Below are positions 27,547-30,853 of a stretch of 64,000 bases of DNA, piece by piece (the first letter of the stretch is position 1; each line of letters begins with the position of its first letter). This stretch comes from Marinobacterium sp. LSUCC0821. Lineage in GTDB: Bacteria > Pseudomonadota > Gammaproteobacteria > Pseudomonadales > Balneatricaceae. The stretch is taken from the NCBI RefSeq assembly GCF_012848475.1, contig NZ_CP051666.1:1763501-1827500 (forward strand), written 5' to 3'. The position numbers were made by a program, and so were the translations under genes. The notes below the pieces were generated by a model, which did not search any database, was not told where the DNA came from, and worked only from the letters and a program-made list of their open reading frames with translations.

Positions 27547-28572
<1,026 letters not shown>

Positions 28573-28744
28573 TCATAAACTTAAATTACTGGGCCAAGTA
28601 TACCCTGTCTCAAGGTTAAGTTGCGACGCTGCAATCAGGCCGCACTGAACAGCGTAATTAAGATATTCTAAAACGGTATTAAAATTTAATGTTTTTAATA
28701 CATTGAGCTCTATGAAACTTTCGTCGAAATCATTAAAATACACG

Positions 28745-28902
28745 CCATGGACTGAGCGGGACCGAGGGATCGGAAACGCGAAATCACGGAATTGATTTCA
28801 CTGAGGTTTGTAGCAACACAGGGACATCGCAGGAGCGACTTGGTTGCAGGGAATTCAAATCTCGAGAGGCGAGCTACGGATTGGCTCGCCTTTCTTTTTT
28901 TT
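28745..28902 (+). ncRNA. RsmZ/CsrB-like small RNA that titrates CsrA/RsmA
   Basis: No open reading frame is here, but nine GGA motifs occur within about 130 bases (28749, 28759, 28767, 28772, 28788, 28822, 28832, 28850, 28878). Several sit in loops of short perfect hairpins: CCGA-GGGA-TCGG (28762-28773), GAAATCA-CGGAAT-TGATTTC (28780-28799), TCGC-AGGA-GCGA (28827-28838), and the terminator loop. GGACATCGCAGGAGCGA closely resembles the RsmZ core as I recall it. Such RNAs sequester the translational repressor CsrA. A -10-like TAAAAT is at 28734-28739. The canonical GacA upstream site (TGTAAG-N6-CTTACA) was not found, so control may differ. The 5' end is approximate. Confidence 0.85.
28867..28902 (+). 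terminator. Terminator of the RsmZ-like RNA
   Basis: AGGCGAGC (28867-28874) pairs with GCTCGCCT (28884-28891) around a loop containing GGA, followed by TTCTTTTTTTT. This is a classic intrinsic terminator on the plus strand. Confidence 0.92.
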
Positions 28903-28926
28903 ATAGGTTGTCTTTAGACAACCTAT
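28903..28926. repeat. Perfect 10-bp inverted repeat immediately after the sRNA terminator
   Basis: ATAGGTTGTC (28903-28912), TTTA, GACAACCTAT (28917-28926). The stem is perfect but has no following T-run on either strand. Function is unknown; it could be a second hairpin of the sRNA 3' region or an operator. Confidence 0.75.
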
Positions 28927-28987
28927 TCATGGTTCAGCGTGACATACGCTAGTTTCAAGATAATCTTACGAACAAAACTCTCACTTC

Positions 28988-29159: not shown

Positions 29160-30041
29160 TTACCGAAGCACAACAGCTACTTTGTTAGCTAGAAGCGCAG
29201 GGTCATCCCAAGGCAGCATGTGGCCTGCGCCGGGAATTACTTCAACATGTATTGGTTGTTTTACGTAGTTCGCGACTCGGTATGCGTATTCAAGTGATAG
29301 CACTTCATCTTGGTCGCCCTGGAGTATGGTGAGTTCGAAGGGGTAGGAATGGGTCGCTATGCCAGCGCGATGAGTAAAGAGTGACGAGAGCGTTCCGAGT
29401 GGGTAGTCGAAAATAATCTTGGGATCTTGGTTTATGTAGGGGCCTGCTGGGTGATCACCCAAAAGAGATTCCCAATCGATAAAACTCTTCAATGGCACTC
29501 GAGACGCCGGGAACCACAGGGCGCCAAAGCTTGTCCATGACCAACCCAAAGCGTGCATAAAGTCGGGTGGCACCTCAGTTAGCAAAAGAGTATCGCACAC
29601 CACTTTTTTAATTCGCGGATCATGTTCAGCAAGCGATACAGCATGGAGAGAGCCAATTGAGTAACCAAATACTGACCAATCACCTATGAATCTATCACTC
29701 ACACGATCAATCACATGAGTGAGCTGATGTCTGAACTGTTCAACGCTATAGCGTCCTTTATCCCCAGCACTGTAGCCATGCCCAGGTGGATCGACAGCGA
29801 TGACGTTAAAGCCCTGCTCAACCAGTTTCACTGCCAGCTCTGCATAGAGCTCAACATAAGTTCCTATGCCTGCTAGAAACAGCAAGTTAGGTGCATCGTC
29901 AGAACAGCGATAGATTTCGACATTTACTGCAGCATCGTAGCGCCACACTTCACGCCGTTTAAGATCTTCACGGATTCCAAGCCCATCACGTAAAGCTCGC
30001 TGCTCGGGGGTTTCAGATAGAACAACCTGCTTCCAACTCAT
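29160..30041 (-). CDS. Alpha/beta-hydrolase fold protein
   Basis: The product is 293 residues from the ATG at 30041; an in-frame GTG at 30053 is possible. The fold shows NVIAVDPPGHGYSAGDKG near residue 93, the nucleophile elbow FGYSIGSLHAVSLAEHD near 142, ILQGDQDEVLSLEYA near 241 with the acid, and GAGHMLPWD near 271 with the catalytic His. The substrate is unidentified. The start forms TAATG with the mutM stop, so translation is coupled to mutM. The structured RNA element lies downstream of its stop. Confidence 0.85.
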   Translation of the reverse strand: MSWKQVVLSETPEQRALRDGLGIREDLKRREVWRYDAAVNVEIYRCSDDAPNLLFLAGIGTYVELYAELAVKLVEQGFNVIAVDPPGHGYSAGDKGRYSVEQFRHQLTHVIDRVSDRFIGDWSVFGYSIGSLHAVSLAEHDPRIKKVVCDTLLLTEVPPDFMHALGWSWTSFGALWFPASRVPLKSFIDWESLLGDHPAGPYINQDPKIIFDYPLGTLSSLFTHRAGIATHSYPFELTILQGDQDEVLSLEYAYRVANYVKQPIHVEVIPGAGHMLPWDDPALLANKVAVVLR

Positions 30042-30853
30042 TAACGCTGACACCCACTACAGAAAACGGTTGTGCGCTGCCCCATTCGTATCTCTTTAAG
30101 TGGTTTTTCACACTGCTTACAGGGCTCGCCACCGCGTCCGTAGACAGAGAGTTCTTGGGCAAAATAACCAGGTTTACCATCACTCGATAGGAAGTCGCGC
30201 AGGGTTGTTCCACCGCGCGTGATGGCATAGTCCAGTACAGTTTTTATCTCATCTACCAGGCGAGCATAGCGCTGCTTGGTGATTTTGCCTGCCGGTTTTC
30301 TAGGATCGATACCTGCCTTAAATAGCGATTCGTTTGCGTAGATATTACCAACACCCACCACCACCTCTGAGGTCATGATGAACTGTTTCACAGGCAGTGA
30401 ACGGTTACGCGAAGCCTTGAAAAGGTAATCGACATCAAAGGCTTCAGAGAGAGGTTCCGGTCCCAATTTTGAAAGCAGCGGATGTGCGGATTCTTTGCCT
30501 TGCCAGAGGACTGAACCGAAGCGGCGAGGATCCGTAAGTCGCACCAACTTGCCATTATCAAACTCAATATCAACATGGTCATGCTTAGCTGGCGGCGTAC
30601 CTGTAGGTAAAACACGAAGACTGCCAGACATGCCAAGGTGAATCATTAGATCCCCTTCATCAAAGCGAATCAGCAGATATTTGCCACGACGCGCCACTGA
30701 GCGAACCTGCTGATCCAGAATATATTGAGGGATCTCTGCAGGTACGGGCCAACGCAGACGAGGCTCTCTGACAACAAAGGCAGTCACGGACTGTTGGTCG
30801 ACGTGAGGCTCTATGCCGCGTCGCGTGGTCTCAACTTCTGGTAATTCTGGCAC
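30041..30853 (-). CDS. mutM: Formamidopyrimidine-DNA glycosylase
   Basis: The product is 270 residues. It starts [16 protein letters not shown], with the N-terminal Pro nucleophile and Glu2 catalytic pair after Met removal. [10 protein letters not shown] near residue 70, [19 protein letters not shown] near 168, and a C-terminal zinc finger (CKQC near 244 and CSGC near 265) are present. The enzyme excises 8-oxoguanine and formamidopyrimidines and nicks the abasic site. It is full length. Oxidative-damage repair next to oxyR/recG is typical of this chromosomal neighbourhood but not evidence of a shared operon. Confidence 0.97.

Follow-up and report, generated by a model that had tools for sequence, protein, structure and literature searches.

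The window analysed here, a 64-kb stretch of the Marinobacterium sp. LSUCC0821 chromosome, contains a predicted small RNA (sRNA) in the space between hemB and an alpha/beta hydrolase gene. The features of the locus are:

27547 to 28563, minus strand: hemB, the conserved left-hand neighbour (gene annotation and ortholog loci)
28697 to 28711: place homologous to the palindrome TAGGAA-N3-TTCCTA of related genera, centre at about -41, with no recognisable site and at least 7 of 12 positions different (ortholog comparison)
28712 to 28739, plus strand: weak sigma70-like promoter, ATGAAA-16-TAAAAT (consensus match only)
28745 to 28903, plus strand: Csr/Rsm-type sRNA, predicted transcript of ~158 nt (GGA count, fold, orthologs and covariation)
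28756 to 28779, plus strand: hairpin 1, with GGA in the loop (fold; covaries across six genomes as helix 1)
28780 to 28799, plus strand: hairpin 2, with an ACGGAA loop (fold; helix 2 in the six-genome alignment)
28803 to 28862, plus strand: outer stem around the core, 6 of 6 modelled pairs changing on both sides between genomes (fold; helix 3)
28813 to 28847, plus strand: most conserved core, GCAACACAGGGACATCGCAGGAGCGACTTGGTTGC, with the GCAGGA-GC hairpin (fold and ortholog alignment)
28864 to 28902, plus strand: intrinsic terminator with a CGGA loop, then a T run (fold and terminator prediction)
29160 to 30053, minus strand: alpha/beta hydrolase gene, the conserved right-hand neighbour in three congeneric genomes, G001-G003 (ortholog loci)

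Both hemB and the hydrolase gene lie on the minus strand, so the plus-strand sRNA unit stands alone, and a leader or 3' UTR of either neighbour was rejected on the same grounds. A coding explanation was also rejected: the open reading frames of the region are short and differ among the orthologs, with none long or conserved, and it is the helices that covary. What remains is an intergenic unit with its own intrinsic terminator and a predicted transcript, which, judging from promoter, terminator and homology, probably runs rightwards from ~28745 and ends with the terminator (28902).

The 158 nt at 28745-28902 contain nine GGA motifs, of which seven have the form A(N)GGA. A stretch of that length holds ~1.5 on average, and no second one in the 64 kb, whichever strand is read, reaches nine; 31 of 20,000 base shuffles do. 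The minimum-energy fold, at -59.2 kcal/mol, is far more stable than those of shuffled sequences (mean -41.3; z = -5.14; none of 200 equally stable) and places GGA in four hairpin loops, as GGGA in hairpin 1, ACGGAA in hairpin 2, GCAGGAGC in the core hairpin and CGGAT in the terminator loop. The core itself, GGACATCGCAGGAGCGA, lies at 28822-28838, and the terminator hairpin at 28864-28894 is followed by a T run. The motif count and fold bear out the initial annotation of this DNA, which had reported nine GGA motifs, four of them in hairpin loops, and the strong terminator it described is likewise there. Immediately past the T run, at 28903-28928, lies a perfect inverted repeat, AGGTTGTC-TTTA-GACAACCT, which draws chance Rfam matches on the minus strand; the snoZ194 match falls on the inverted repeat beside the sRNA and was dismissed as one of these.

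No Rfam model matched the window copy or its orthologs at gathering or relaxed thresholds, apart from chance matches such as snoZ194, and the CsrB, PrrB_RsmZ, RsmX and RsmY models found nothing even when E-values of up to 10 (window copy) or 5 (orthologs) were allowed. By covariance model, then, the sRNA is not a member of Rfam RsmZ, CsrB or RsmX/Y, a non-match that is not decisive because Rfam does not cover the lineage of the window. The label "RsmZ-like" given earlier thus holds as a description of design and fails as a family assignment; the Rfam covariance search suggested at the same time gave no match, and a model built in this work does recover the orthologs.

A plain DNA search located the sRNA between hemB and the hydrolase gene in three congeneric genomes (G001-G003) and reached no further, covariance and palindrome searches being needed beyond them. 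The covariance model R1, built from these three orthologs, recovers the window copy (E = 2.6e-19) and finds a copy adjoining hemB in G005; with a further copy upstream of hemB in G004, the genus has hemB-adjacent orthologs with the same helices in five genomes besides that of the window. R1 also matched sequences in genera g4, g6 and g15, and the weak matches L103-L106 and L109 were rejected as having at most one GGA each. In the window's own genome R1 returns the window copy only, and siblings of another sequence type could be missed by it because it was trained on close relatives. In the six-genome alignment 93.9% of cells are paired, a figure biased towards the modelled structure, because the model used for aligning had been built from three of the six sequences. 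Stronger evidence than the pairing percentage comes from the changes on both sides, which affect 22 of 42 pairs; none of 500 shuffles was as good, and sliding the partners by 1-3 columns destroyed the signal.

Across the six genomes the GGA loops are kept while the stems change sequence. Given the known mode of A(N)GGA recognition (PMC4066749), such constant loops on changing stems would be the mark of a CsrA-type ligand, and the AAGGAU-type loops found among the orthologs resemble that of RsmZ stem-loop 2 (PMC4066749). The lack of an Rfam match might instead point to a structured GGA-loop RNA whose action does not involve CsrA, for instance a base-pairing sRNA that merely looks Csr-like. We consider this improbable, since a base-pairing seed would be expected to show the reverse of varying stems with fixed GGA loops, and since sibling GGA-rich RNAs in the family share one upstream site (see below).

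CsrB and RsmZ of other bacteria soak up the global regulator CsrA, and such RNAs are normally turned on by the two-component system GacS/GacA. The window genome has one intact csrA, which scores 90 bits against PF02599 and clears the NCBIfam cut-offs, and given this gene the best reading of 28745-28903 is a CsrA-sequestering RNA, as had been proposed initially and as is supported by the conserved architecture, the compensatory changes and the several A(N)GGA motifs held in hairpin loops across six genomes. From its anatomy and conservation, we infer that the GGA hairpin loops would bind several CsrA dimers and titrate CsrA away from its target mRNAs. The RNA resembles Pseudomonas RsmX, RsmY and RsmZ in its several A(N)GGA loops and Rho-independent terminator, and differs from them in that neither a covariance match, nor a TGTAAG-N6-CTTACA box, nor a GacA in the genome was found. 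With CsrB/CsrC of E. coli and Marinomonas mediterranea (PMC8523701) it shares the sequestration design, GGA loops and terminator. Those RNAs are governed by BarA-UvrY or PpoS-PpoR through the canonical GacA box, TGTAAG-N6-CTTACA (PMC4682653, PMC8523701), whereas for the window sRNA neither this box nor the regulator was found. The initial annotation had noted that no palindromic GacA site lies upstream, and a scan for TGTAAG-N6-CTTACA with up to three mismatches agrees: there is none near the sRNA promoter, and the 25 matches across the window are at chance level.

The wider family provides a different site. In related genera the hemB-linked RNA and sibling GGA-rich RNAs lie downstream of the palindrome TAGGAA-N3-TTCCTA or a close variant, and the canonical box was not found at these promoters either. 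The palindrome is present in 71 of the 116 genomes of the surveyed family, which we take to be the one containing Marinobacterium because its nearest named hemB is from that genus, and it has far more matches than the reversed control. A GGA-rich stretch, meaning at least seven GGA within 150 nt on one side of the site, flanks 18 of 30 sampled sites as against 60 of 1200 control positions, and many sites precede a full sRNA with a terminator. The hemB-linked sRNA recurs with the palindrome in genera g4, g6 and g10, and among the 23 promoters examined in these genera and in G004 and G005 the palindrome has at most one mismatch at 19. In the hemB-linked copies its centre lies at -39 to -41 relative to the inferred 5' end. 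Position next to hemB and RNA architecture are both common to the window sRNA and those with a palindrome promoter. Among 80 named genomes, the hemB neighbourhood lacks the palindrome in all except Marinobacterium weihaiense, on a contig of which the palindrome adjoins hemB with ten GGA beside it, a second pointer to Marinobacterium as part of the family. Neither the palindrome nor any Csr sRNA of Marinobacterium was described in the papers searched. In the window the site is missing from its place at about -41, and G001-G003 retain only TAG...CTA there, with five mismatches; the family site has decayed in the window lineage.

A profile of the family's GacA-like proteins gives one strong match in 103 of 116 family genomes. 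The best model for these proteins is UvrY/SirA/GacA (NCBIfam NF007018), at scores below its cut-off of 280 bits (184-202 for two typical members and 144 for one from the window genus), and in genus g2 the gene adjoins uvrC and pgsA; both the best-scoring family and this linkage liken the regulators of the sister genera to UvrY. They form one group in a tree whose deep forks are poorly resolved and which includes long branches. Identity to UvrY/GacA is 49-60% in most other families of the order and mostly 37-46% for the best matches in the window family, where the recognition helix reads SPKTVHAHRANI instead of SPKTVNSYRYR. From their co-occurrence, we infer that this diverged GacA may bind TAGGAA-N3-TTCCTA. 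No GacA/UvrY regulator was detected in the window genome, a single contig at 99% completeness, with either UvrY or the family profile as query; its four LuxR-type proteins are one ErdR-like protein and three others without the GacA layout. The profile search, in which negatives were rechecked and all candidates scored, found no GacA-like regulator in the window genome (G000), its three closest relatives (G001-G003) or G005. As for the kinase, BarA homologs are anchored at the N-terminus in nine of the family genomes tested, whereas searches of G000-G005 and two g2 genomes gave matches to the kinase core only; in the window genome, where 47 of 57 candidates were scored, these begin no earlier than BarA residue 265. 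The match between regulator and site is imperfect because G005 (94% complete) and G086 (87% complete) have the palindrome and no detectable GacA-like gene, and because G004 has a GacA-like protein and no BarA-like match. The G004 protein (L120, 2241-2903) is the most divergent of those aligned, at ~33% identity to UvrY, and in its genome no BarA homolog matching from the N-terminus was found, which would fit a system already undergoing erosion. As the loss rests on one clade, the co-loss amounts to essentially one or two events.

The initial suspicion that the trigger differs from the usual one thus gains support from the missing GacA ortholog, the absence of a recognisable GacS and the decayed family palindrome. 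A plausible history is that the family ancestor had a hemB-linked RNA activated by a diverged GacA-like regulator at TAGGAA-N3-TTCCTA, at about -41, as the co-occurrence of the two would suggest, and that the window lineage lost the GacA-like gene and any recognisable GacS, the site decaying while the RNA was retained. If so, its level must now come from basal sigma70 transcription and/or another regulator. The loss of regulator and site together with the weak promoter could also mean that the RNA is a non-functional relic decaying after the loss of Gac. To us this is likewise improbable: G000-G003, the four genomes lacking both regulator and site, all retain intact loops, stems and terminator, and the sRNA is 63-66% conserved from the window to G001-G003 against 42-49% for the upstream intergenic DNA.

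Another response regulator of the window genome could have taken over. A dedicated replacement for GacA, either the ErdR-like regulator or a protein acting at an AT-rich inverted repeat at ~28677-28702, is a real though tentative possibility: the ErdR-like regulator is kept, AT-rich inverted repeats lie upstream in the window and in G001-G003, and the -35 element is poor, as in activated promoters. The repeats of the window and G001-G003, however, differ in sequence and distance and so reveal no common new site, and the ErdR-like gene adjoins an acetyl-CoA synthetase gene, which fits a role of its own. The window repeat reads GTATTAAAA...TTTTAATAC and that of G001 (L003), ~83 bp upstream of the sRNA, TTTGGTTAT...ATAACCAAA; in both sequence and distance, the AT-rich repeats vary across the Gac-less lineage. 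We regard it as quite likely that the locus encodes a stand-alone sRNA serving as a CsrA sponge, retained in the window lineage after its ancestral control through a GacA-like protein and the palindrome was lost. We lean, with less assurance, towards a broader proposal: that Csr sRNAs in Marinobacterium and its relatives run from a previously undescribed TAGGAA-N3-TTCCTA operator read by a diverged GacA, and that the small-genome lineage of the window lost this switch, its sponge surviving and being rewired to other control.

Accounts of gammaproteobacteria usually treat the chain from Gac through sRNA to CsrA as a single fixed circuit. Because sponge and CsrA appear to outlive the switch in the window lineage, the role of a CsrA sponge without Gac can be asked there. 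A GacA recognition helix that changed together with the operator it reads would offer a clean example of regulator-site co-evolution, and the family-wide palindrome makes Csr sRNAs easy to look for by sequence in a lineage outside Rfam coverage. Behind the same palindrome, the genus g15 loci L127, L133 and L134 show a GGA-rich RNA of a longer type, which is probably a sibling resembling CsrB and measuring ~200 nt or more, and further GGA-rich sRNA types occur at L151, L149, L152, L136, L140, L143 and L145. In several family genomes the palindrome occurs three to nine times, which makes multiple sibling Csr sRNAs per genome likely.
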